NCBI RefSeq assembly: GCF_000179615.1
Contig: NZ_AEDD01000001.1
Coordinates: 496,001-560,000, forward strand
DNA from: Paenibacillus curdlanolyticus YK9
GTDB lineage: Bacteria > Bacillota > Bacilli > Paenibacillales > Paenibacillaceae
Reading direction: 5' to 3'
Length of the DNA: 64,000 nt
Within the stretch, counting starts at the first letter, position 1. Each line of letters opens with the position of its first letter. The notes beneath the pieces are model-generated. The model ran no database searches, was not told the DNA's origin, and saw only the letters and a program-made list of their open reading frames with translations. Positions 40,076 through 52,625 of this stretch are shown here, piece by piece. Both the position numbers and the translations under genes were made by a program.

Positions 40076-40501
40076 ATGGGTACTTTCTTGGATATGAGAA
40101 GTTCCATGAACGCGAATGCATCTGGCTCGATCGGCGTCAGCTTGACGACAACTCCACAATTGTTTGGCATCATTGGCTTGCAAACGAGAAACGTCGCTAA
40201 TCCGATTGTTACGCTGGCTGGTACGATCGGTATCAGCGGCGGCGCACTTGGCAACACATTCACGGTTGAAATCGTTCGTGGAGTAACAGGCGGCGCAACG
40301 ATTTACACGGCAGAAATGGCTATCGCTTTGAACGTATTGAACGGCAACGCGCTCTACAGCTTCAACGCACAAGACCTCAACGCTCCAGCAGCAGAAGAAA
40401 CAGTTTACACGGCATTTATTTCCGGCGGCCCGCTCGCTGTCCTCACAGGCGCGCGCAACGGTCCTGAAACGTTCTACGGCACAGCTTCCTCCACAGTTTA
40501 A
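40076..40501 (+). CDS. Small Ser/Thr-rich beta-strand protein, possible spore-surface or glycoprotein substrate
   Basis: 141 residues, not recognised. Starts MGTFLDMRSSMNANASGSIG after AGGAGGTGA, so initiation should be strong. The sequence is rich in Ala, Gly, Thr, Ser and Val with alternating hydrophobic strands (NPIVTLAGTIGISGG, NTFTVEIVRGV) and no charged clusters, cysteine or signal peptide, resembling self-assembling surface domains. CATATTCTA at 40036-40044 fits the -10 of mother-cell sigma-K promoters, without a clear -35. It lies between the germination operon and the glycan cluster and may be the cluster's protein target; this is inference. Confidence 0.7.
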   Translation: MGTFLDMRSSMNANASGSIGVSLTTTPQLFGIIGLQTRNVANPIVTLAGTIGISGGALGNTFTVEIVRGVTGGATIYTAEMAIALNVLNGNALYSFNAQDLNAPAAEETVYTAFISGGPLAVLTGARNGPETFYGTASSTV

Positions 40502-40518
40502 TCATTCGCAGCACACAA

Positions 40519-40553
40519 AACATGTGCCCCGCAAGGGGCGCATGTTTTTTTTT
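40519..40553 (+). terminator. Strong terminator after the small beta protein gene
   Basis: AACATGTGCCCC-GCAA-GGGGCGCATGTT is a 12-bp stem followed by a nine-T run. It isolates the small gene from the downstream glycan cluster. Confidence 0.92.
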
Positions 40554-40638
40554 GTTGGATTGTTACCTAAGTGTCCAAACCGAACAGGGGCCGCGCGCAT
40601 ACGATAGACACAACCTATGTCGCGTAAGGAGGGCTCCT

Positions 40639-41772
40639 GTGATTACGATTAGCCTATGCATGATTGTCAAGAACGAGGAAGAGGTGCTGGCGAGGTGCCT
40701 TGACTCGGTGGCAGATCTTGTAGATGAAATCAATATCATCGATACGGGCTCGACGGACGGAACGAAAGAGATTGCGGCGCGATACACCGACCGTATCTTT
40801 GACTTTGAATGGATCGACGACTTTGCGGCAGCGCGCAACTATTCATTCGCCCAAGCGACGTGCTCGCACATTATGTGGCTGGATGCAGATGACATTGTGT
40901 TCGAGAAGGATCGCGAACTGCTCAAAGCGCTCAAGGAGGAGATGCCCGCAGATATCGATTCCATCATCATGTCGTACCATCTGGCCTTCGATCAGGAGGG
41001 CAATGCGGCGGCAGGCGCAAGGCGGAATCGGATCGTCAGGCGGGAGAAGGGCTATCGCTGGCATAACCCGATTCATGAATATCTGGAGGTGCTGGAAGGC
41101 CAGATCTACGTATCGGAAGCGGCGATTTCCCACAAGCGAATGGGTGATCATTCGGCAAGGAACATGGCGATCTTTGAAAAAAAGCTGCTGAATAACGCGG
41201 AAAGGCTGGAAGGGCGGAACCTGTTCTATTATGCCAATGAGCTTGTCGATCAAGGCATGCATGCGGAAGCAGCCGACCATTATGAGCGGTTCGTACGGCA
41301 GCCGGGCGATGCGCAGGCTGACCTGATGCTTGCGTATAGCAAGCTGGCGGAAAGCTATCATCATTTGGGACGAATGGATGAGAAGCTGCGATCGCTGCTG
41401 CTCGGGCTGCAGTTTGACAAGCCGCGCGCGGATTTCTGCTGCTCGATTGGCTACTGTTTCGAGGAGAGGCAGCAGTATGAAGCGGCGATCTATTGGTATG
41501 AGACGGCGCTTACGCTGCCCAAGCCGGCTTTTCATATGGGATTGTTGAATCTCGTTTGCTGGACGTGGATGCCGCATGTGCAGCTATGCATTTGCTATGC
41601 CAAATTGGGCGGGCTGGAGAAGGCATATGAGCACAATGAGAAGGCGCTGGCTTATTTGCCTAACGACACCAACTTATTGGATAACAAGCGCAAGCTGGAG
41701 CAAGCGCTCGGGTTGGACGCTGTGCCGGAGGTTGTCCAGCAACCCGCCGACAAGGAAGATCCGATATGCTGA
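40639..41772 (+). CDS. Family 2 glycosyltransferase with C-terminal TPR repeats
   Basis: 377 residues from GTG 40639 (TAAGGAGGG upstream). The GT-A domain starts MITISLCMIVKNEEEVLARC and contains IDTGSTDGTKEIA and the DxD-type MWLDADDIVF. From about residue 205 helical TPR-like repeats follow (YANELVDQGMHAEAADHY, CFEERQQYEAAIYWYETAL). This architecture is common in enzymes that glycosylate proteins or peptides (SunS-like). It opens the cluster and overlaps the next gene by 7 bp, implying translational coupling. Confidence 0.9.
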   Translation: MITISLCMIVKNEEEVLARCLDSVADLVDEINIIDTGSTDGTKEIAARYTDRIFDFEWIDDFAAARNYSFAQATCSHIMWLDADDIVFEKDRELLKALKEEMPADIDSIIMSYHLAFDQEGNAAAGARRNRIVRREKGYRWHNPIHEYLEVLEGQIYVSEAAISHKRMGDHSARNMAIFEKKLLNNAERLEGRNLFYYANELVDQGMHAEAADHYERFVRQPGDAQADLMLAYSKLAESYHHLGRMDEKLRSLLLGLQFDKPRADFCCSIGYCFEERQQYEAAIYWYETALTLPKPAFHMGLLNLVCWTWMPHVQLCICYAKLGGLEKAYEHNEKALAYLPNDTNLLDNKRKLEQALGLDAVPEVVQQPADKEDPIC

Positions 41773-44060
41773 CGAGCATCATTCTGGTTACGTATAACAA
41801 GCTGGATTACACGAAGCAGTGCATCGACAGCATCCGCCAACGGACCGATGAGGGTCGATACGAGCTGATCGTCGTCGATAACGGCTCAATGGACGGCACG
41901 CAGGAATGGCTCGCTGCACAGCCGGATATTCGATTAATCGCCAATTCGGACAATGCGGGATTCCCCCGCGCGTGCAATCAAGGGTTGGCCGCTGCCGCTG
42001 GCGATCTGCTTATGCTGCTTAACAACGACACGGTCGTAACCCCTTCGTGGCTGGAAGGGCTGACAACCGCGCTATTAAGCGCGACGGATATCGGCGCGGT
42101 CGGCCCGGTTACGAACGCGGCTTCGTATTTAACGAGCATTCCGGTGCCTTATGCGACGATGGATGAGATGGAGGCGTTCGCCGAGGCGCATAATCGCCCG
42201 GATCCTGCGAAGTGGGAAGAGCGGGTGAAGCTGATCGGCTATTGCCTCCTAATGAAACGGGAAGCGTACGAGCAAGTGGGTGAGCTTGATGAGCAGTTCG
42301 GCATCGGCAATTTCGAGGATGACGATTTCTGCCTGCGGATGCGACTGGCGGGCTATAAGCTGCTGCTGTGCCGGGATACGTTTATTCATCATTACGGCAG
42401 CGTCTCCTTCAGCGCGGATCGGACGCTGTTCCAGCAGGTGCTGTCGGAGAACACCGAGTTGTTTAAGCGCAAATGGGGATTTGATCCAGCAATCGCGACG
42501 ACGATTCGGGTTGACCTGCTGGACGTCGTGAAGGATCAGACGGCGGACGGCGAGCGACTGCGCGTTCTGGAGGTTGGCTGCGGCTGCGGCGGGACTTTGC
42601 TGGCGCTGAAATACCGTTGCCCAAGCGCAGTGTTATTCGGCGCCGAGCGAAACGAGCAGGCTAGAGGCATTGCGGAAGCGGTCGGCGTTACGATGTTCAG
42701 CTCCGGCCGCCCGGATGACTGGCAGCTAATAGAGGACGGGACGCTGGACGTCATTCTCATAGGAGAAGCCCATGCGTATACGGCGGTGCCGACACAGCTT
42801 ACGCGCATGATTCGCAAGCTGCGGCCGGGCGGCTGGCTCGTGGCTGGATTTATGAACGCGAAGTTTTATCGGTATGCGAATCGGCTTGCGGACGGGGAGA
42901 CGCTGGACGATAAACCGTGGCTCACGAGCGAGAAAGCGGGAGCGATGCTTGCAGCGGCAGGCGTATCCGAGCTTCGGATTACGCATGCCGTGGAGCCGGA
43001 GCACGATCGGGACGATGCGGGGCTGGAGCGAGCGGTAGAGCGCGCTGGCGCGGGAGCTGACCAGCTTGTGCTGAAAGCGGCCTATTTCCTTCTTCACGGG
43101 CACCGTATGGCGGCCCCTGCGCTAACTGCTAAGCCAAGCGTTGGCAGAGGAGGCAGCGGAAGCAGGAGCAGAGGAGACCGAGTCGCTAGCAATCGGCAGC
43201 CGGAGCAGAAGCAGGAGCAGGAGCCGGAGGTGCGGGAGCAATTGCCAGCGGCATTGGCGGGTGAAGCAGCGGATGACCGGGCGCAGCCTGCGGTATTGAA
43301 GGAACAGAACGACGTCGCTTTCACCGGCGAGCGGCTTGTTGTGAATTCGGATGTCAAATCGCAGTTCCGCGATGTGTACGATGAGCATATGGTGCGGTAT
43401 GAGGCTGCTGCGGAATATGTGCATGGACTGCATGTGCTTGATGCGGCATGCGGAGCGGGATACGGCACCCGAATGCTGCATGATGCGGGAGCGGCTTCGG
43501 TCACCGGCGTCGATATCGACCCGGAGTCGGTCGAGCTTGCGCAGCGTGACTATGGGCATCCGGGCATGCTGTTCATGCAAGGGGATGTGCTGTGCCTGCC
43601 GTTCGCGAGCGAAACGTTTGATGCGGTCGTTTCCTTCGAGACGATCGAGCATGTCGCGTCAGGAGCGGCTTGGATTCGCGAAGCGGCCCGCGTGCTGAAG
43701 CCGGGAGGGCTGTTTATCGTTTCGACGCCCAACCGCGCGGTGACGAATGCCTCGAACTATTTTGAAGAGCAGCCGTTTAATCCGCATCATCGGTTCGAGT
43801 ACCGAACGAGCGAATTGATCGGAGATTTGCTGCCTATGTTCACGTTGGAGGAGCTGTACGGCCAGAACTGGATTGACGATTCGCAATTCGCCGCTATGCG
43901 CTGGCTGCGGCAAACGAACGGCATGGCGCTGGAGCGGGAAGAGCGGCTGCGAATTGAGCAGACGGGCAGCGAGCTGCTGCCATTCCATGCGTTTCGGAGC
44001 GGTGAACCGATGTATGTCGTCGCGGTATGCAGGAAACGGATCGGAGGCGTTGACGGATGA
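41766..44060 (+). CDS. Tri-domain glycosyltransferase-methyltransferase-methyltransferase fusion
   Basis: 764 residues. Residues 1-230 are a GT2 domain (SIILVTYNKLDYTKQCIDS, VVDNGSMDGTQEW, LLNNDTVV). Residues 265-450 form a SAM methyltransferase domain (VLEVGCGCGGTLLALK). A Gly/Ser/Arg then Gln/Glu-rich linker spans about 455-515. A second methyltransferase domain covers about 520-700 (VVSFETIEHVASG and LDAACGAGYGTRM). The linker looks like a fusion joint. A single polypeptide that both adds and methylates a sugar is plausible. Overlaps both neighbours (7 bp and 4 bp). Confidence 0.88.
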   Translation: MLTSIILVTYNKLDYTKQCIDSIRQRTDEGRYELIVVDNGSMDGTQEWLAAQPDIRLIANSDNAGFPRACNQGLAAAAGDLLMLLNNDTVVTPSWLEGLTTALLSATDIGAVGPVTNAASYLTSIPVPYATMDEMEAFAEAHNRPDPAKWEERVKLIGYCLLMKREAYEQVGELDEQFGIGNFEDDDFCLRMRLAGYKLLLCRDTFIHHYGSVSFSADRTLFQQVLSENTELFKRKWGFDPAIATTIRVDLLDVVKDQTADGERLRVLEVGCGCGGTLLALKYRCPSAVLFGAERNEQARGIAEAVGVTMFSSGRPDDWQLIEDGTLDVILIGEAHAYTAVPTQLTRMIRKLRPGGWLVAGFMNAKFYRYANRLADGETLDDKPWLTSEKAGAMLAAAGVSELRITHAVEPEHDRDDAGLERAVERAGAGADQLVLKAAYFLLHGHRMAAPALTAKPSVGRGGSGSRSRGDRVASNRQPEQKQEQEPEVREQLPAALAGEAADDRAQPAVLKEQNDVAFTGERLVVNSDVKSQFRDVYDEHMVRYEAAAEYVHGLHVLDAACGAGYGTRMLHDAGAASVTGVDIDPESVELAQRDYGHPGMLFMQGDVLCLPFASETFDAVVSFETIEHVASGAAWIREAARVLKPGGLFIVSTPNRAVTNASNYFEEQPFNPHHRFEYRTSELIGDLLPMFTLEELYGQNWIDDSQFAAMRWLRQTNGMALEREERLRIEQTGSELLPFHAFRSGEPMYVVAVCRKRIGGVDG

Positions 44061-44851
44061 AGGTCGTTATTTTGGCCGGAGGGTTAGGTACACGCATAAG
44101 CGAGGAATCGCATCTGAGGCCAAAGCCGATGATCGAGATCGGCGGACGCCCGATCCTGTGGCATATTATGAAAATTTATGCGCATCACGGCTTTAATGAC
44201 TTCATCGTCTGCCTCGGGTACAAAGGGTACGTGGTCAAAGAGTATTTTGACCATTATCTGCTGCATGAATCCGATGTCACCTATGATTTTCGCAACAGCG
44301 AGCGTTCGGTGAAAAAAATTCACCGCCATCAAGCGGAGCCGTGGCGCGTCACGTTGGTGGATACGGGCATGGATACGATGACCGGCGGGCGGCTGAAGCG
44401 CATTGCGCCTTATTTGGAAGACGAGACCTTCATGCTGACCTATGGCGATGGGTTGACGGATCTCAATTTGCAGCAATTGCTCCATTACCACCGCGCGCAT
44501 GGAAAGCTGGCGACGGTCACTGCGGTCCAGCCAGTCGGACGGTTCGGAACGCTCATTATGAATGAGGACCAGTCAGTCGCGACGTTCGCGGAGAAGCCGC
44601 GCGGGGATGGGCACTGGGTAAGCGGCGGATTTTTCGTGCTGGAGCCCGACATGCTCGCGCATATTGACGGCGACGACACGATGCTGGAGCGAGAACCGCT
44701 GGAGCGGTTGGCGGACGCAGGCGAGCTGAAAGCTTATCGGCATACGGGCTTCTGGCAATCGATGGATACGATGCGGGATAAAGCGCTTCTGGAGGAGCGT
44801 TGGCGAACGGGCGGAGCGCCTTGGAAAATCTGGAACCGGGACTCGATCTGA
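44057..44851 (+). CDS. rfbF: Glucose-1-phosphate cytidylyltransferase
   Basis: Makes CDP-glucose from CTP and glucose-1-P. 264 residues with the nucleotidyltransferase start MKVVILAGGLGTRISEESHL, then RPKPMIEIGGRPILWHIMK, YGDGLTDLNL (metal Asp), VTAVQPVGRFGTL, and GFWQSMDTMRDK. These are specific to the CDP-glucose enzyme rather than RmlA. ATG overlaps the preceding stop by 4 bp. With rfbG it commits the cluster to CDP-6-deoxyhexoses. Confidence 0.95.
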   Translation: MKVVILAGGLGTRISEESHLRPKPMIEIGGRPILWHIMKIYAHHGFNDFIVCLGYKGYVVKEYFDHYLLHESDVTYDFRNSERSVKKIHRHQAEPWRVTLVDTGMDTMTGGRLKRIAPYLEDETFMLTYGDGLTDLNLQQLLHYHRAHGKLATVTAVQPVGRFGTLIMNEDQSVATFAEKPRGDGHWVSGGFFVLEPDMLAHIDGDDTMLEREPLERLADAGELKAYRHTGFWQSMDTMRDKALLEERWRTGGAPWKIWNRDSI

Positions 44852-44932
44852 CGGTGGCGGGCAGCTGATTGCATGGGGAAGCGGGATACAGGATGATGCA
44901 GGATACGATGGATGAGCAGGGAGGACGGCAGG

Positions 44933-46090
44933 GTGAGCGGCGGTCATCGGTTTTGGCAAGGAAAACGCGTGTTGATTACAGGGCATTCTGGCTTCAAGGG
45001 GACATGGTTGGTGTTGTGGCTGCGCAGGCTCGGAGCTGAGGTGATCGGATACAGCAATGATTTGCCGTCTGCGCCGTCGATGTATCGACTGTGCGGCTTG
45101 GAGCATGACACGGCTTGGGTGCGCGGCGACATCAGGGACGAAGGAAAACTGCTGCAAACGGTATTGGCAGCTAAGCCGGAGATCGTCTTTCATCTGGCTG
45201 CGCAGCCGCTTGTCAGACGTTCGTATGCGGAGCCGATCGAGACGATTGCCGTCAATGTCGTAGGCACTGCGAACGTGCTAAATGCGATACGTTCCGCGCC
45301 CTCCGTACGCTCGGTCATTATTGCGACCTCAGACAAATGTTATGCCAATACGAAGCAGGAGCAAGCGCACGGCCATGTGCTGAAGGAAACCGACCGATTA
45401 GGCGGCCGGGACCCCTATTCGGCGAGCAAAGCAAGCGCGGAGCTCATCGTTGACGCGTATCGTCATTCCTATTTTCAAGCTAGGCAAGCAGGAAGCGGGC
45501 AAAGGGCGCTAGCGGTTGCGACAGTCCGCGCCGGCAATGTCATTGGCGGAGGGGACTTCGCGATCGATCGCATCGTTCCCGATTGCGTTCGCGCTGCACA
45601 GCATGGCTGGGCTCCCCTGCTCCGCAATCCCGATGCGGTCCGCCCGTGGCAGCATGTGCTTGAGCCGCTTTCGGGCTATATGATGCTGGCGGAGAGGCTG
45701 TTTGATGCAGCAGGAGCAGGGGACGATACGCTGGCGGAAGCCTGGAATTTCGGCCCTGAGGCAGGGCAAGAGATGACGGTAGGCGAGCTTGCGCATCGGA
45801 TAAGCGGCTGGGTGGGAGCGTCCGGGCCTATCGTTTCGAGCGATTCGGAAGGTCCGTATGAGGCAGCGATGCTGCGCATCGATAGCAGCAAAGCGCATTC
45901 GCGGCTAGGCTGGCAGCCGGTGTGGAGCACGCAGGAGGCGGTTGAGAAAACCGGGGAATGGTATCAGCAGTGGCGGAAGGGCGCTTCCATGCGAGCGGTG
46001 ACGGATCGCCAAATTCAAGCGTATGAGCAGGCCCTGGCAGCCCGGCAGCCGGTTCAGGAGGTGGATGCAACGGATGAGCAAGGAGCGTGA
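44933..46090 (+). CDS. rfbG: CDP-glucose 4,6-dehydratase
   Basis: Converts CDP-glucose to CDP-4-keto-6-deoxyglucose with bound NAD. From GTG 44933 (AGGGAGG 8 nt upstream) the N-terminus reads SGGHRFWQGKRVLITGHSGF and the protein has 385 residues; ATG 44912 would add seven residues. The NAD motif is GHSGFKGTWL, HLAAQPLVRRSY follows, and the active-site Tyr/Lys are in RDPYSASKASAEL. The 3' end overlaps the C-methyltransferase start. Confidence 0.95.
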   Translation: MSGGHRFWQGKRVLITGHSGFKGTWLVLWLRRLGAEVIGYSNDLPSAPSMYRLCGLEHDTAWVRGDIRDEGKLLQTVLAAKPEIVFHLAAQPLVRRSYAEPIETIAVNVVGTANVLNAIRSAPSVRSVIIATSDKCYANTKQEQAHGHVLKETDRLGGRDPYSASKASAELIVDAYRHSYFQARQAGSGQRALAVATVRAGNVIGGGDFAIDRIVPDCVRAAQHGWAPLLRNPDAVRPWQHVLEPLSGYMMLAERLFDAAGAGDDTLAEAWNFGPEAGQEMTVGELAHRISGWVGASGPIVSSDSEGPYEAAMLRIDSSKAHSRLGWQPVWSTQEAVEKTGEWYQQWRKGASMRAVTDRQIQAYEQALAARQPVQEVDATDEQGA

Positions 46091-47348
46091 GGCTGGAGAC
46101 GGGCCGCATCGTGACGCTAAGCGGGATGAAATGCAGCAAGGGGGAGCGGCGCGATGCCGCGTTTGCGGCGGCGGGCCGCTTCACCGATGGGTTCATCTGC
46201 CTGACATGCCGCTGACAGAGGAGCTGCATCCGCCCGCGCATGCCGGAAAGCCATTTCTCGCCGATATTGACGTGTACGTTTGCGAGGCATGCGGCGTATC
46301 GCAAACGGTCGGCATGCGGGACTTGTCTCCCTATTACATCGACTACGGGTATACCGTTGGCCAATCGGCGTTCGCATCGCTGTTTATGGAGCGGCTGGCG
46401 GTGGCGGTGCGTGACCGTTATGGCTTGAAGCCCGGGTTTTCCGTCGTTGAGATCGGGTCGGGCGACGGCGTCCAGCTCAAAAGCTTTGAACGGGCCGGGG
46501 CTCGCGTGTACGGGGTGGAGCCGTCGGCGTCGCTATGCCAAGCAAGCAGGGCGCGAGGCATTCCGGTGATGGAGGCGTTGTTCGAGCCGGCAACGGCAGC
46601 GCTCTTGCCTGAGGCTTTCCGCAGTGCGGATGTGCTGCTTCTGACCTACACGTTCGATCATTTGCCCGATCCGTCGGGCATGCTTGAGGCGGCGCGCCAG
46701 ACGCTGCATCCCGGCCGAGGCTTGCTCGTGCTGGAGGTGCATGATCTGGATCAAATCGTGGAGCGCCGCGAATATTGCTTGTTTGAGCACGAGCATTACA
46801 CCTATTGGACGAAGGAAACGCTCAAGGGCGCTTTGGGGCGATGCGGATTTCGCATGCTGACCTCAGAGCTGCTGCCTGCGTCGCAGCGTCGCGGAAATTC
46901 GCTGCTCATCGTCGCTGCGCCAATGGACGCTGCCCATGTTCCGGATGGGAGAGCGGAGGCGGATCGAATCGGGACAACGATCGATTATAGCGGCTTTCAG
47001 ACGGAGCTCGACAGCGGAATTGCGGCGCTGGATGCATTCGTTGCTGCGGAATCCGCTGCTGGGCGCAAGGTAGCGGGCTATGGAGGAGGAGGTCGCGGCG
47101 TTATGACGCTGGCTGCTATGTCGACCGCCGGGCAGATCGCATATGTATGCGACGCCAATAAAGCGCTGCACGGAAGACTAGCGCCCAAATCGCAGGTCCC
47201 CGTCGTCGACATTGCGCGACTAGCCGAACAGCCGGTCGACACGTTGATCGTTTTCAGCTACGGCTACATGGCGGAAATTCAAGAGGCTGTGAGGAAGCAG
47301 CCGAATGCGCCGCAGCGGATCGTCTCGATGCTTGAGCTATTGAAATGA
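46074..47348 (+). CDS. Sugar C-methyltransferase (NDP-hexose C-methyltransferase type)
   Basis: 424 residues; three domains as in TylC3/NovU-type enzymes. An N-terminal zinc site uses CRVC (near residue 29) and CEAC, the SAM domain has VVEIGSGDGVQLKSF, and the C-terminal domain has YGGGGRGVMTLAAM. Such enzymes add a methyl group beside a keto group of NDP-4-keto sugars, giving a branched C-methyl sugar. The start is uncertain: AGGAGGT at 46056-46062 is 12 nt from ATG 46074 and 3 nt from ATG 46065. It overlaps both neighbours. Confidence 0.88.
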   Translation: MSKEREAGDGPHRDAKRDEMQQGGAARCRVCGGGPLHRWVHLPDMPLTEELHPPAHAGKPFLADIDVYVCEACGVSQTVGMRDLSPYYIDYGYTVGQSAFASLFMERLAVAVRDRYGLKPGFSVVEIGSGDGVQLKSFERAGARVYGVEPSASLCQASRARGIPVMEALFEPATAALLPEAFRSADVLLLTYTFDHLPDPSGMLEAARQTLHPGRGLLVLEVHDLDQIVERREYCLFEHEHYTYWTKETLKGALGRCGFRMLTSELLPASQRRGNSLLIVAAPMDAAHVPDGRAEADRIGTTIDYSGFQTELDSGIAALDAFVAAESAAGRKVAGYGGGGRGVMTLAAMSTAGQIAYVCDANKALHGRLAPKSQVPVVDIARLAEQPVDTLIVFSYGYMAEIQEAVRKQPNAPQRIVSMLELLK

Positions 47349-49261
47349 GGAGACGCGCCATGGAAGAGGAACAGATGCATAACGCAAGCGCGTCGCCTGC
47401 CGCAGTCGTGACCGGCGCTGCTGGATTCATCGGCGCGGCGGTATGCCGCCAGCTCCTCGAGAGAGGCTGGCATGTTTATGCCGTCATTCGCCCCGGCTCA
47501 GCTGCAAGCCGATTGCCGCAGCATGAACGGCTGCGCCTGGTGGAAGGCGATTTGATGGAGGTTTCGGAATGGGCGTGCCGGCTGGAAGAGGCGGCTGCGG
47601 AAGGGGCGGCGTTTGCGGCATGGCTGCATTTGGGGTGGGCTGGTGTCGCGGGCGAGGCCCGCAATGATGCGGCGCAGCATCATAATGTCGCGGCGGCGGT
47701 TGAAACGGTGCGGCTAGCCGGCAAGCTTGGCTGCGCGAATTGGATCGGGGCGGGGTCGCAAGCCGAGTATGGGCGGCTTGCGGGGCGAGCCGACGAGACG
47801 GCAGACGAAGCGCCGACGACGGCTTATGGGCGAGCAAAGCTTGCCGCAGGCAGGCAAGCTTTGGCGGAAGCGTCCAGCTTAGGCATGAGCGGAAGCTGGG
47901 TTCGCGTCTTTAGCGTTTACGGGCCGGAGGATGGCGTCGGATGGCTCATTCCCGGCCTTGTCCGGCAGTTGATGGCAGGCGCGAGTCCGGCGCTAACGGC
48001 AGGCGAACAGCGGTGGGATTATTTGTACGTAGAGGATGCGGCTGCGGCGTTCGTTGCGCTGGCGGAACGCGGCGTATCGGAGGGGGCGGCAGCATCAGCA
48101 CTAGCGGAAATGCCGGAAATTCAGCGATGGCAGGCATCCGGCAGCGATAGCGGCAACGGCATGGTTGCTGGCGTTGGCGGAGTCTACAATTTGGGCTCTG
48201 GCGCGAGCCGCCCGATCCGCGACATTGCAGCGCTCGTGCGGCAGGCGGTGGCATGCCGATTGCCGCGCGCAATTGCAGGCGGGAGGCTGGAGCCGCCGCC
48301 GCTGCGGCTCGGCGCTGTACCCTACCGCGAAGACCAAGTGATGCTGCTGGAAGCGGACATTGGGAAGCTGACCGGCGCGACGGGCTGGAAGCCGGCTGTA
48401 ACGCTAGAGGACGGGATCGAGCGGACGGTTGCGGCATATGTAGCGCGAATCGAGCAAGAACGCAGACTAACGGTGAAACGAACGATTGTGACGATGGCTT
48501 ATCGCTCCCAATCGTCGCATGTTGGCGCGGCCTTGTCGGTGGCGGATATCCTGCTTGCGCTTTATTTTCACGTGCTTCGCGTTGACGCTGCCCGGCCGGA
48601 TGATCCGCGTCGCGATAAGCTGGTTTTCTCCAAAGCGCATGCCTCGACTGCTCTATACGCCGCATTAGCTGAACGCGGGTTTTTCTCGCGCCAAGTGTTG
48701 GAAGGATACGCGATAGACGGCGGGCGGTTGCCTGGCCATCTCGATCGCAAGTCAGTGCCGGGCATTGATGCTTCGGCTGGCTCGCTCGGACACGGCTTAT
48801 CGATAGGAGCAGGCTTTGCATTGGCGGATCGCTTGGCGGGCCGCGACAGCCGGACGTTCGTCGTGCTTGGAGATGGCGAGTGCAACGAAGGGGCGATCTG
48901 GGAAGCGGCGCTTGTCGCCTCCTCGCAGCAGCTGCGCGGATTGCGCGTTATTGTCGATTGCAACGGCTGGCAGGGTTTCGGCCGCACGGATGAGCTGTCG
49001 CCGCTTGCTGCGCTGAGCGACAAGTGGCGCGCGTTCGGCTGGGAGGTCGTCGAGACGGATGGCCATGACCTAACAAAGCTGACAGCGGCGCTTGATGCAC
49101 CAAGCTTAAGCGGCAAGCCCGCGGCAGTGCTGGCGCGGACGGTCAAAGGCTTCGGCGTCGATTTTATGGCGGATACGCTGGAGTGGCATTACAAGTCGCC
49201 AAGCAAGGCGCAATGGGAAGCGGCGCTGCTGCAGCTGGGCGGCAAGGGGGAAGCCGAATGA
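47345..49261 (+). CDS. Fusion of NAD-dependent sugar epimerase/dehydratase with transketolase N-terminal half
   Basis: 638 residues. Residues about 15-368 form an extended SDR: NAD motif VVTGAAGFIGAAVC, catalytic YGRAK near residue 160, and VYNLGSGASRPIRDIA. With no linker, residues about 373-638 are the ThDP-binding half of transketolase: MAYRSQSSHVGAALSVADIL, FSKAHAS, SLGHGLSIGAGFALA, and the ThDP/Mg motif GDGECNEG near residue 509 with VDCNGWQ. The C-terminal half follows as a separate gene overlapping by 4 bp. The SDR part may be an epimerase or reductase acting on the same sugar. The frame is continuous with no internal stop. Confidence 0.9.
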   Translation: MRRRAMEEEQMHNASASPAAVVTGAAGFIGAAVCRQLLERGWHVYAVIRPGSAASRLPQHERLRLVEGDLMEVSEWACRLEEAAAEGAAFAAWLHLGWAGVAGEARNDAAQHHNVAAAVETVRLAGKLGCANWIGAGSQAEYGRLAGRADETADEAPTTAYGRAKLAAGRQALAEASSLGMSGSWVRVFSVYGPEDGVGWLIPGLVRQLMAGASPALTAGEQRWDYLYVEDAAAAFVALAERGVSEGAAASALAEMPEIQRWQASGSDSGNGMVAGVGGVYNLGSGASRPIRDIAALVRQAVACRLPRAIAGGRLEPPPLRLGAVPYREDQVMLLEADIGKLTGATGWKPAVTLEDGIERTVAAYVARIEQERRLTVKRTIVTMAYRSQSSHVGAALSVADILLALYFHVLRVDAARPDDPRRDKLVFSKAHASTALYAALAERGFFSRQVLEGYAIDGGRLPGHLDRKSVPGIDASAGSLGHGLSIGAGFALADRLAGRDSRTFVVLGDGECNEGAIWEAALVASSQQLRGLRVIVDCNGWQGFGRTDELSPLAALSDKWRAFGWEVVETDGHDLTKLTAALDAPSLSGKPAAVLARTVKGFGVDFMADTLEWHYKSPSKAQWEAALLQLGGKGEAE

Positions 49262-50187
49262 GAAACGCATTCGTTCGTGAGCTGCTGCAGCGGGCGGAGA
49301 CGGACCCGCGCATCGTCGTGATTACGCCGGATCTCGGCTTTTCCGTATGGGAGCCGTTCCGTGACCGTTTCCCAGATCGGCTGCTTAATGCGGGCATTGC
49401 GGAGCAAAACGCCGTCGGCATGGCGGCGGGATTGGCGTTATCCGGTCATGTTGCATACGTATACAGCATCATACCATTCGTAACGATGCGAGCCTACGAG
49501 CAAGTTCGCATCGATGCGGCTTATATGAATGCGCCTGTGCGCTTGATCGGAGTCGGCGCAGGCTTCGCCTACGGCGGCCAAGGGCCGACGCATCATGGGC
49601 TGGAGGATGTCTCGCTTATGCGCTCGCTGCCCAACATGACGGTATGCTGTCCTGGCGATGATATCGAGGCGCGGGAGCTGACGCAAGCGAGCTTCGAGCA
49701 TCCGGGTCCTATGTATATTCGACTTGGCAAATCAGGCGAGCCGCGCGTGCACGACGCTGCAACGCGGCTTGCGCTAGGCGAGGCGATTGAGCTCATTTCC
49801 GGCGCCCAAGCGGTTGTGTTCGCATCGGGCACGGCGCTCGCCCGTGCGAAGGATTGGGTGCTCCGCCTGCGTGAGGAAGCGAGGCCGATCGAGGCGGCGC
49901 TGGTCAGCGTCCCGACGGTGAAGCCGTTTCCTGAGGATGTGGTGCTGCGCTATGCGAAGCGAGGGATGCCAATCATCACCGTTGAGGAGCACAGCGTGAT
50001 CGGCGGCTTAGGGAGCGCAGCGGCGGAGGTGCTGGCCGAAAGCGGCGCTGCCGCCGTGTTGAGGCGGTTCGGCCTGCCGGACGCTTTTTGCCGGGAAGTC
50101 GGCAGCCATTCGTATTTGCTCGAGCGATCGGGCTTTCATTATGATCGGTTTCACCAAATGATGAGGGGAGTGTGCGACGGGCTATGA
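49258..50187 (+). CDS. Transketolase C-terminal half (pyrimidine-binding and C-terminal domains)
   Basis: 309 residues from ATG 49258 (ATGA overlap with the preceding gene; the ATG at 49183 is in the previous gene and was rejected). Catalytic Glu lies in GIAEQNAVGMAAGLAL, followed by YGGQGPTHHGLEDV and a C-terminal domain with ITVEEHSVIGGLG. It must pair with the N-terminal half fused to the SDR. Split transketolases occur in secondary sugar pathways, where they attach a two-carbon branch; that role here is inferred from context. Overlaps the next gene. Confidence 0.92.
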   Translation: MRNAFVRELLQRAETDPRIVVITPDLGFSVWEPFRDRFPDRLLNAGIAEQNAVGMAAGLALSGHVAYVYSIIPFVTMRAYEQVRIDAAYMNAPVRLIGVGAGFAYGGQGPTHHGLEDVSLMRSLPNMTVCCPGDDIEARELTQASFEHPGPMYIRLGKSGEPRVHDAATRLALGEAIELISGAQAVVFASGTALARAKDWVLRLREEARPIEAALVSVPTVKPFPEDVVLRYAKRGMPIITVEEHSVIGGLGSAAAEVLAESGAAAVLRRFGLPDAFCREVGSHSYLLERSGFHYDRFHQMMRGVCDGL

Positions 50188-50945
50188 CGGATTCTTATAA
50201 ACCGATGGGGATGATCAGCAAGCATCATCGGCCCTCGGACTTTGAAGCATATCGGCTGACGGAGGAGACGTTCGAGCAATCGCAGCTGTCGGTGTTCAAC
50301 AAGCTGGAGGCATTTCCGCGTTTCGCAACGAAACGGAGTTTGGCAAAATTTTTGTGCCGCTACGAAATATTCAAGCATGTGCTGAACACGACCGGCAACA
50401 TCGTTGAATGCGGCGTATTTAACGGCGGCGGCTTGTTCACATGGGCGCAGCTGTCGAACATTTATGAGCCTTCCAACCATACGCGCAAGATCATCGGTTT
50501 CGATACCTTTGCGGGCTTTCCCTCTGTGGCTGAGGAGGATCGAGAGCCCGACGACGAGTTTAAAGCAGGCGATCTGAAGGGCGAGACGCTGGAGCAATTG
50601 GAGCTGTCGGTTGAGAAATATAACGCGGAGCGCTATTTGTCGCATATCCCGAATGTAGAGCTTGTACAGGGCGATTTTATGGCAACGAGCGAAGCTTATA
50701 TGGAACGGAACAAGCATATGCTGATTGCGCTGCTGTACTTGGACTTCGACCTGTATGAGCCGACGAAGAAGGCGCTGGAAGTGTTCCTTCCCCGCATGGG
50801 CAAAGGCTCCATCATTTGCTTCGACGAGCTGAACTGCGCTTCTTTCCCTGGCGAGACTTCGGCGCTGCTCGAAATGCTGCCGATCCGCGACACGGCGATT
50901 CGGCGATTCCCGACGGATCCGTGGGTATCCTATGTCATTTTGTAA
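50184..50945 (+). CDS. TylF/MycF-family sugar O-methyltransferase
   Basis: 253 residues from ATG 50184, which overlaps the transketolase stop by 4 bp. Family patterns: VECGVFNGGGLFTWAQLS (SAM site), IIGFDTFAGFPS, and metal-ligand Asp-rich LLYLDFDLYEPTK with ICFDELN. Macrocin-type enzymes O-methylate deoxysugars (often 3-OH), after or before transfer. Its place after the sugar-modifying genes fits a late tailoring step. Confidence 0.9.
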   Translation: MTDSYKPMGMISKHHRPSDFEAYRLTEETFEQSQLSVFNKLEAFPRFATKRSLAKFLCRYEIFKHVLNTTGNIVECGVFNGGGLFTWAQLSNIYEPSNHTRKIIGFDTFAGFPSVAEEDREPDDEFKAGDLKGETLEQLELSVEKYNAERYLSHIPNVELVQGDFMATSEAYMERNKHMLIALLYLDFDLYEPTKKALEVFLPRMGKGSIICFDELNCASFPGETSALLEMLPIRDTAIRRFPTDPWVSYVIL

Positions 50946-50963
50946 CAAAGCGGGGCATGTGTG

Positions 50964-52625
50964 ATGAGCGGCTCCCATGATGCTGGGCATAGTTCGCAGA
51001 ATGAGCAGCTTAGTGAGGGAACTGACAAATCTGTTGAAATAGACGCAGGAGTGGAGCCGGAAGCAAGTGCGTCTACTGATGTTGCCGCACATGTAGTTGA
51101 GACAGCGGAAACAGTAGAGGCAGCCGACACGGCTGACACCACCGACGCTGCAACTGATTCACATGGCTTCTACCATCTGGGGCAAAACACGGTCATTGAA
51201 GCGGGCTCCCAAATGCACGGGATGCCGGAAATGTCGATCGGCAGCGGCGTGTTCATGCGTACGGGCGCGTGGTTCAACATTTGTACCGAGGTGACGGGTG
51301 AGCGCCCGAAAATTATCGTGGGAGACGGCTGCCAATTTAACGTTGGCGTCTCGGTATCCGCGGCAAATCGGATCGTGCTCGAACGTTTTTCGATCTATGG
51401 CCATCATTCGTATATAACCGATACGCAGCATGAATACCGCCAAATTGGCATTCCGATCATTATGCAAGGCATTACGCGCGTGGACGATGAGACGATCATC
51501 GGCGAAGGAACCTGGGTAGGCGCTAACTGCATTATAGGAGGCGGCATCCGAATTGGCAGAGGGTCCGTCATCGGTGCGAACAGCGTCGTAACTCGCAGCC
51601 TGCCGGATTATTGCGTAGCCGTCGGCTCGCCGGCGCGAATCGTCAAGATGTTCGATACGGAAGCTGCCGATTGGATTTCGGCACGCACGCCCGAAGAGAT
51701 CGAGGCGGTCATGCGGCGGAGGCGCGAGCGACCGGTATTGTCGATCTGTATTCCGACCTACAATCGGGCGTCGGATTTGCTGCGCTGCCTGCACTCGATC
51801 GTCATGCAAACAGGCGACTGCACGCTCATTGAAATCGTCGTGTCTGACAACGCTTCGCCGGATGGCACGCAGCAGGTGCTCGAGACGTTCGCTGCCCAGC
51901 ACTCAAACTGCAATCTGCGTTACTGGCGCAATGAAGAGAACATCGGCGCGGAGCGCAACATCGTGAAGCTGCTGGACGAGGCGCGAGGCGACTACATGCT
52001 GCTGCATGGCGACGACGATTTTTTCCACGATATGACGATCATGCCGCTCCTTCATTTGATTAACACGAATCGGAGCAGCTCGGTCATATTCATTGACGTG
52101 CTGAACGATAACGCTCAGGTAGAAAGCGGCGAAGGCTTGGATGCGTTCATTGCGAGAGCTTCGATCAACTCGGGCTTCCTGTCCTCCGTTATCCTTGAGC
52201 GTGCCATTTATGAGCAAATGGAGGATAAGTCAGCGTTCATCGGGACGGGATTCAATCATATTTATTTGCAGCTGGAGGCGATTCGGCGCAAACCGGGCTT
52301 TACGGCGATTAATAAATCGATGTTCGCCTATGCGGGCAACGACCCGGCGGGCTATAATTTCGGCGAGTACTTTATAGCGGGTTATTTGCGCATTCTTCGC
52401 CATTTTGAGCAGCGCGGATTATCTGCTGAAGCGTTGAAGCATGAGAAGGGCAACATGCTGGCGTCCACCATACTGCCATGGTACAAACGGATCGTGGAGC
52501 AGGGATTGGGGACGGACCTTACGGGATTTGAGGACATTTATACGGCGCATTATAAGGATGAACCGTATTACGAGGCGGTATTGGCGTGGATTCGTGACGT
52601 CAAACGACCGGAGCAGGCAGAATAA
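50964..52625 (+). CDS. Hexapeptide acyltransferase-glycosyltransferase fusion
   Basis: 553 residues from ATG 50964 (GTG 50961 possible). Residues 1-62 are Ala/Asp/Glu/Thr-rich and probably disordered. Residues about 75-235 are a left-handed beta-helix acyltransferase: ISIYGHHSYI-like strands, IGEGTWVGANCIIGGGIRIG, and the end motif SLPDYCVAVGSPARIVK. From residue 256 a GT2 domain begins (LSICIPTYNRASDLL, VVSDNASPDGTQQV) with LLHGDDDFF as its DxD-like motif. It ends the cluster. Which acyl group and sugar it uses cannot be read from the sequence. Confidence 0.88.
   Translation: MSGSHDAGHSSQNEQLSEGTDKSVEIDAGVEPEASASTDVAAHVVETAETVEAADTADTTDAATDSHGFYHLGQNTVIEAGSQMHGMPEMSIGSGVFMRTGAWFNICTEVTGERPKIIVGDGCQFNVGVSVSAANRIVLERFSIYGHHSYITDTQHEYRQIGIPIIMQGITRVDDETIIGEGTWVGANCIIGGGIRIGRGSVIGANSVVTRSLPDYCVAVGSPARIVKMFDTEAADWISARTPEEIEAVMRRRRERPVLSICIPTYNRASDLLRCLHSIVMQTGDCTLIEIVVSDNASPDGTQQVLETFAAQHSNCNLRYWRNEENIGAERNIVKLLDEARGDYMLLHGDDDFFHDMTIMPLLHLINTNRSSSVIFIDVLNDNAQVESGEGLDAFIARASINSGFLSSVILERAIYEQMEDKSAFIGTGFNHIYLQLEAIRRKPGFTAINKSMFAYAGNDPAGYNFGEYFIAGYLRILRHFEQRGLSAEALKHEKGNMLASTILPWYKRIVEQGLGTDLTGFEDIYTAHYKDEPYYEAVLAWIRDVKRPEQAE

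Follow-up and report, generated by a model that had tools for sequence, protein, structure and literature searches.

A reductase-like protein fused to half of a split transketolase beside CDP-sugar genes: a candidate route to two-carbon-branched surface sugars

In the yersiniose pathway, YerF is the branch reductase. The branch is installed by YerE, which, in the passages of a 2025 review that treat it, uses pyruvate as the source of activated acetaldehyde and attaches this to CDP-3,6-dideoxy-4-keto-D-glucose (PMC12247030). The passages of the same review on miharamycin and amipurimycin describe split transketolases with a proposed role in moving a hydroxyacetyl group onto a keto sugar, together with 13 further split-transketolase candidates, all from Streptomycetes, with none of the proposed enzymes characterised in vitro (PMC12247030). 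Since this proposal is in print, keto-sugar branching by a split transketolase is not new as an idea. With respect to branch reduction, Pau7 of paulomycin biosynthesis is presented, in the passages of PMC4753412 that deal with it, as an NADPH ketoreductase that converts a C4 acetyl branch to hydroxyethyl. Among solved structures, the split-gene transketolase of Carboxydothermus hydrogenoformans (PDB 6yaj/6yak, alpha2beta2) has separate N and C chains.

The window, a stretch of 64,000 nucleotides from the soil bacterium Paenibacillus curdlanolyticus YK9, likewise carries a transketolase as an N-half (TKN) and a C-half (TKC), and in the PDB both halves match 6yaj/6yak best by sequence, the N-half also by structure. 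The C. hydrogenoformans enzyme, however, has no SDR attached. The operon order is rfbF, rfbG, C-methyltransferase, SDR/TKN, TKC, O-methyltransferase, and glycosyltransferases lie on both sides of this set (Table 1). We favour, with somewhat better than even confidence, the reading that the cassette makes a C2-branched CDP-6-deoxysugar for a surface glycan, with the split transketolase performing the branching and the fused SDR reducing the branch ketone.

Table 1. Features of the sugar operon, with positions in the window
Feature	Position	Strand	Evidence
GT2 glycosyltransferase with TPR-like repeats	40522..41772	+	Pfam, neighbourhood comparison
GT2 glycosyltransferase with methyltransferase-like domains	41766..44060	+	Pfam, neighbourhood comparison
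rfbF, glucose-1-phosphate cytidylyltransferase	44057..44851	+	TIGR02623, 418 bits against a cut-off of 300
rfbG, CDP-glucose 4,6-dehydratase	44912..46090	+	TIGR02622, 440 bits against a cut-off of 278
Sugar C-methyltransferase, start uncertain	46023..47348	+	Pfam; nearest PDB entry 4rv9 (3.7e-37), TcaB9
Fusion gene, extended SDR and transketolase N-half, 638 aa	47345..49261	+	ORF, Pfam, AlphaFold model
SDR part, residues about 18-369, nucleotide-sugar epimerase/dehydratase fold, Arg49 after beta-2	47396..48451	+	
Joint, one continuous predicted helix, residues 354-388	48404..48508	+	alignment, model, dN/dS
Transketolase N-half, residues about 361-633, closest solved structure the N chain of split transketolase 6yak	48425..49243	+	
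ThDP/Mg motif GDG-x28-N, residues 509-540	48869..48964	+	
Transketolase C-half, 309 aa, catalytic Glu in IAEQN	49258..50187	+	Pfam, alignment
TylF-type sugar O-methyltransferase, start uncertain, nearest CalS11	50172..50945	+	Pfam; 3tos/4gf5 (5.6e-36)
Hexapeptide acyltransferase-like domain with GT2 glycosyltransferase	50961..52625	+	Pfam; homologues beside fused genes

A preliminary description of this DNA had read one frame as a full extended SDR followed by the ThDP half of a transketolase, and the next gene, overlapping by 4 bp, as the catalytic-Glu half. Both assignments hold. Inspection of the ORF and its translation shows the frame to be open throughout, the protein contains VTGAAGFIG, YGRAK and GDGECNEG, and Pfam places Epimerase (PF01370, 7.6e-35) on residues 21-243 and Transketolase_N (PF00456, 6.2e-31) on residues 386-615. 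The C-half, with Transket_pyr (2.1e-35) and Transketolase_C (5.8e-14), is counted here from the ATG that overlaps the end of the fusion as ATGA, whereas the ORF list begins it at a GTG at 49183 (334 aa). Judged by sequence, the C-terminal half of the fusion and the next gene are a complete split transketolase with ThDP and catalytic residues. In the AlphaFold model of the fusion (pLDDT 92.6, pTM 0.90), the last helix of the SDR and the first helix of the transketolase form the joint helix; the SDR is attached to the transketolase half covalently and, in the prediction, rigidly. The start of the fusion may be Met6 (47360) rather than 47345, since the ORFs of four of five relatives begin at the Met6 column. 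An internal start yielding a free N-half was considered and rejected: among the six fused genes no start codon is conserved at the joint except Met384, which sits inside the joint helix and is common to unfused proteins at that column.

Homologues of the fusion were sought in 394 genomes of the window's family. Full-length open fusions occur in G299 (79% identity), G297 (66%), G301 (67%), G300 (62% and 71% in two segments of a single frame) and, in another genus, G314 (58% and 63%). Across the genus, whose other members here include Paenibacillus terricola, P. cellulosilyticus, P. xylaniclasticus and Paenibacillus sp. MMS18-CY102, a match was found in all six genomes and was full-length in five; in the sixth (G298) it is cut by a contig end, with the SDR frame open up to there. 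The window's own assembly comprises 5.4 Mb in 39 contigs, and a second P. cellulosilyticus assembly carries the same gene on a complete 509-kb replicon (NZ_CP054609.1), where its product, WP_110042955.1, is annotated just as "SDR family NAD(P)-dependent oxidoreductase". A plasmid search with the whole fusion matched 206 records, one of which (P. cellulosilyticus) covers at least 80% of the fusion; the phage search matched 12 records with the N-half alone as query and is thus blind to fusions. Nei-Gojobori estimates against three genomes (G299, G297, G301) point to constraint. The dN/dS ratios against G299 are about 0.16 (SDR), 0.07 (joint) and 0.12 (TKN), and for the joint (residues 351-392) the dN/dS values, below 1 in each comparison, are 0.12/1.73 against G299, 0.41/1.15 against G297, where it is less constrained, and 0.29/2.05 against G301, all of them noisy because the joint has only 42 codons. 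The SDR also contains an insert (residues about 241-278) whose length varies and which seems to be free of constraint when species are compared (0.64/0.60 against G299). A sequencing or assembly error, which the preliminary description had placed as a stop or frameshift near 48440-48480, or a decaying gene, could in principle mimic a fusion; we found no support for it, and with an open frame, full-length fusions in five genomes of the genus, one in another genus, the second P. cellulosilyticus assembly and the constrained joint against it, we reject it with near certainty.

In a C-half tree of 99 rows, the five fused Paenibacillus rows form one clade (100/99) next to the unfused G001, in which nearly the same gene order contains the SDR (314 aa) and TKN (263 aa) as separate genes; the fusion therefore joined adjacent genes almost end to end. 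A separate SDR-TKN fusion, with an SDR of another subgroup, is present in the nanoarchaeal MAG L111 as one 610-aa frame (SDR 29-308, TKN 353-609) in a single record, and it adjoins an rfbF-like gene and a dehydratase-like gene. The coupling of SDR and transketolase supposed in the preliminary description is strengthened by these two separate fusions, of the Paenibacillus and nanoarchaeal types, and the fusion and the modelled rigid joint suggest possible channelling between the two parts.

With respect to the pathway, RfbF and RfbG, as assigned by family models, should give CDP-4-keto-6-deoxyglucose. With a ketose or hydroxypyruvate as donor, the transketolase would transfer a two-carbon ketol (hydroxyacetyl) unit to the C4 ketone of the CDP-sugar, giving a tertiary alcohol and a mass increase of about 60 Da. 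The fused SDR would then use NADPH to reduce the branch ketone, leaving a 1,2-dihydroxyethyl branch (about +2 Da), and this reduction would pull the ketol transfer forward; being in or next to the same protein and having an NADPH-like site, the SDR is well placed to reduce the new ketone. The closest solved relatives of the C-methyltransferase are sugar 3-C-methyltransferases (D-mycarose 3-C-methyltransferase, TcaB9), and it would methylate either C3, ahead of the branching step, or the branch carbon adjacent to the branch ketone; a methyl on C3 next to a branched C4 would be crowded. The O-methyltransferase would further decorate the sugar. Because the whole genome has no RfbH match over the cut-off, and the rfbG of the window is its only TIGR02622 match over the cut-off, the sugar should keep its 3-OH, and RfbH-type 3-deoxygenation in this genome was rejected.

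Such a scheme would be like that of YerE and YerF in yersiniose synthesis, with the transketolase as the branching enzyme. As far as the review's passages on that pathway describe it, the shared elements are a CDP-glucose route, a ThDP enzyme and a C2 branch at the 4-ketone (PMC12247030). YerE differs in belonging to a pyruvate-using decarboxylase family and in its 3,6-dideoxy sugar substrate, whereas here a transketolase would add hydroxyacetyl in a genome without RfbH over the cut-off. Comparison supports the parallel with YerE-type branching that had been drawn from the sequence, as well as the rfbF/rfbG link and a split transketolase with an intact ThDP site. An enzyme of the acetolactate-synthase or YerE type itself is rejected by domain content: Pfam gives Transketolase_N, Transket_pyr, Transketolase_C and, more weakly, E1_dh, DXP_synthase_N and PFOR_II, and no match to the TPP_enzyme families (decarboxylase type) at E up to 0.001. 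The miharamycin and amipurimycin systems share with our proposal a split transketolase thought to add hydroxyacetyl to a keto sugar, but they are natural-product clusters, and section 2.3 of the review mentions no CDP-sugar genes for them (PMC12247030). Pau7 offers a comparable reduction of a branch ketone with NADPH, although, by the same passages of PMC4753412, it is an aldo-keto reductase rather than an SDR and acts on the glycosylated antibiotic.

The SDR part has the hallmarks of an extended SDR (Rossmann fold, GxxGxxG, YxxxK), and in structure comparison its fold is that of 4-epimerases and 4,6-dehydratases. In SDRs, an Arg after beta-2 indicates NADP(H), and an acidic residue there indicates NAD. 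The acidic residue of NAD-dependent 4-epimerases of the GalE type is not present; Arg49 takes its place and is invariant in all 13 SDRs compared. Near a transketolase, this position is Arg in 32 of 34 SDR listings, or 24 of 26 distinct loci, and the two loci without it are fragments missing that stretch. By this residue, the fused SDR is probably an NADPH reductase rather than an epimerase, and the earlier label "epimerase" is doubtful. The same Arg, which suggests NADPH-driven reduction, and RfbG, which should already supply a 4-ketone, make it rather improbable that the SDR acts first, by oxidation or epimerisation of the CDP-sugar, and thereby directs the ketol to C2 or C3. That order does find some support in the SDR fold and in miharamycin biosynthesis, where, in the passages of the review on that pathway, the ketone is proposed to arise through an oxidoreductase ahead of the split-transketolase step (PMC12247030).

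Genome contigs were scanned with ten TKN sequences, the best 80 of 574 relatives were kept, and neighbours were scored in flanks of up to 8 kb by our own score thresholds. An rfbF or rfbG homologue lies near 51 of these best 80 loci (rfbF 48, rfbG 44, both 41), although some matches are weak (28-46% identity) and may be other nucleotidyltransferases or dehydratases; rfbH lies near 32 of the 80 and a C-methyltransferase-like gene near 16. The co-occurrence with rfbF/rfbG that the preliminary description proposed to map is thus found in 51 of 80 loci, from a sample that leans towards such sets because the ten queries were taken from them, and in none of 20 control split-transketolase loci of the window's family, which also have no rfbH or C-methyltransferase-like gene and which weigh less than 20 since they are closely related (17 of 19 C-halves in one clade). 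Without the eight loci already used, the count is 43 of 72. The two halves are adjacent in 74 of the 80 loci, and 29 of the 80 are without rfbF/rfbG. Among the 51 loci with rfbF/rfbG, 25 have an SDR of either kind compared, some sets having none nearby. RfbH was over the NCBIfam cut-off in all five loci scanned.

Sets of this kind but without the fusion are present in many bacteria and some archaea, and the loci with rfbF/rfbG come from many phyla; Geobacter, Nitrospirae, Thaumarchaeota, Gastranaerophilales, Omnitrophota, Sphingomonas and Bradyrhizobium are represented. For example, in the Omnitrophota MAG L112 the rfbF-rfbG-C-methyltransferase-SDR-TKN-TKC set recurs. Rows of this CDP type carry the signatures LEWHYKSP in the N-half and GVGAG(F/L)xYG..GxTHH in the C-half. 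On the C-half tree, the fused clade falls within a supported group of 35 rows (100/96), 30 of them with rfbF/rfbG, and the rfbF/rfbG label needs 11 changes on the whole tree, so that the association was gained or lost repeatedly. We give a nearly even chance to the broader proposal that split transketolases of this family are widespread, act on CDP-sugar ketones and produce C2-branched sugars of bacterial and archaeal surfaces, and that on two or more occasions the branch reductase became part of a rigid bifunctional enzyme that branches and reduces.

The active site was compared in rows from the 51 loci with rfbF or rfbG, with residues numbered by alignment to E. coli TktA, in which H461 is a canonical phosphate-binding His. 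In the window, the GDG-x28-N motif and the conserved His residues are present in the N chain, and the catalytic Glu (E411) and His473 in the C chain. The loss of ThDP-binding residues that had been raised as a concern is not seen on alignment: Asp155, Asn185, His66, His100 and His261 are kept in all 50 N rows and His26 in 48, and Glu411 and His473 in all 51 C rows. H461, in contrast, is Gly in 50 of the 51 C rows, and D469 is kept in one. With the ThDP and catalytic residues kept and H461 lost, the split transketolase looks catalytically competent with an altered acceptor end. This loss is not specific to CDP-sugar sets, since H461 and D469 are likewise missing from 18 of 19 control C-halves (Ser and Leu in 17). 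Directly after His261, Tyr stands in place of Gly in 50 of 50 rows with rfbF/rfbG, 28 of 29 rows without and 1 of 20 controls. The C. hydrogenoformans enzyme has H and GEDG where the C-half of the window has G and GGQG. A housekeeping role is unlikely, since the genome encodes other transketolase homologues, one in a frame of 684 aa and one a second N-half of the split type, so that the SDR/TKN-TKC pair need not be the housekeeping enzyme.

Of the phosphate-binding set R358, S385, H461 and R520, the window has R, S, G and K; in the C rows R358 is kept in 51 of 51, S385 in 47 of 51, and position 520 is Lys in 30 and Arg in 21. A phosphorylated ligand, perhaps the donor, is therefore possible, and these residues are also what would be kept if the two halves catalysed ordinary C2 transfer to supply a separate precursor, a ketose (phosphate), of a different sugar in that glycan, with the SDR fused only for co-expression or assembly. 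The main support for this reading is locus L096, from a related transketolase clade mostly without rfbF/rfbG, which represents a different use of a split transketolase and has the neighbours expected for sugar chain extension: its set comprises an SDR, a phosphoheptose-isomerase-like (sedoheptulose-7-phosphate-isomerase-like) SIS protein, a 4,6-dehydratase-like SDR, the split transketolase, an APH-type kinase, a methyltransferase and a Zn-alcohol dehydrogenase, and L094, L103 and L120 resemble it in gene sizes, the families having been scanned in L096 only. However, no isomerase or kinase was seen among the window operon genes scanned, His461 is lost, the SDR and transketolase were fused twice, and the pair lies near rfbF/rfbG homologues far more often than the controls do. 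We consider such a precursor role unlikely, though less so than an SDR acting first.

In the open-access literature searched, we found no description of an SDR-transketolase fusion or of a transketolase within a CDP-sugar gene set (CDP-glucose, rfbF/rfbG, CDP-4-keto-6-deoxy or branched-sugar). The words "fusion" and "fused" are absent from the text of PMC12247030, "dihydroxyethyl" has no mention among the matches listed in open-access literature, "transketolase" was not found in the available part of PMC9834719, and the passages of PMC3877843 consist of entries in gene lists and a comment on genes carried by viruses. The view that this enzyme design had not been described thus stands, within those open-access papers, for the fusion and the CDP-sugar gene set and fails for the chemistry, which the passages on miharamycin and amipurimycin had already proposed (PMC12247030). 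If our reading is correct, these loci are ready candidates for ketone-accepting transketolases, the attached reductase would make an assay directly readable with NADPH, and an overlooked class of branched sugars is predicted for glycans on the surface of many bacterial lineages and some archaeal ones.

Several further gene arrangements were observed. In L064 (Thermolongibacillus) and L074 (Anoxybacillus), rfbF-rfbG-rfbH occurs with a weakly methyltransferase-like gene (24-25% identity to that of the window) that precedes the transketolase pair, an arrangement relevant to which position, C3 or the branch, receives the methyl. On a plasmid of Streptomyces sp. CL7 (L155), the split transketolase adjoins a DegT aminotransferase and LysW/argB/argC-type amino-carrier genes. 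In the window, flanked by a GerA/GerAC/spore-permease germination operon on one side and the sugar operon on the other, a gene at 40076-40501 with a strong ribosome-site-like sequence encodes a 141-aa protein that is rich in Thr, Gly and Ala and has no Lys, Cys or Trp. It has no Pfam or PDB match, its structure model has a pLDDT of 31, and the open-access literature searched yielded nothing on spore-crust glycosylation. Homologues 83-89% identical lie at the matching place in four genus-mates, with a 27-residue partial match in a fifth, and the protein is perhaps the spore-surface acceptor of the glycan.
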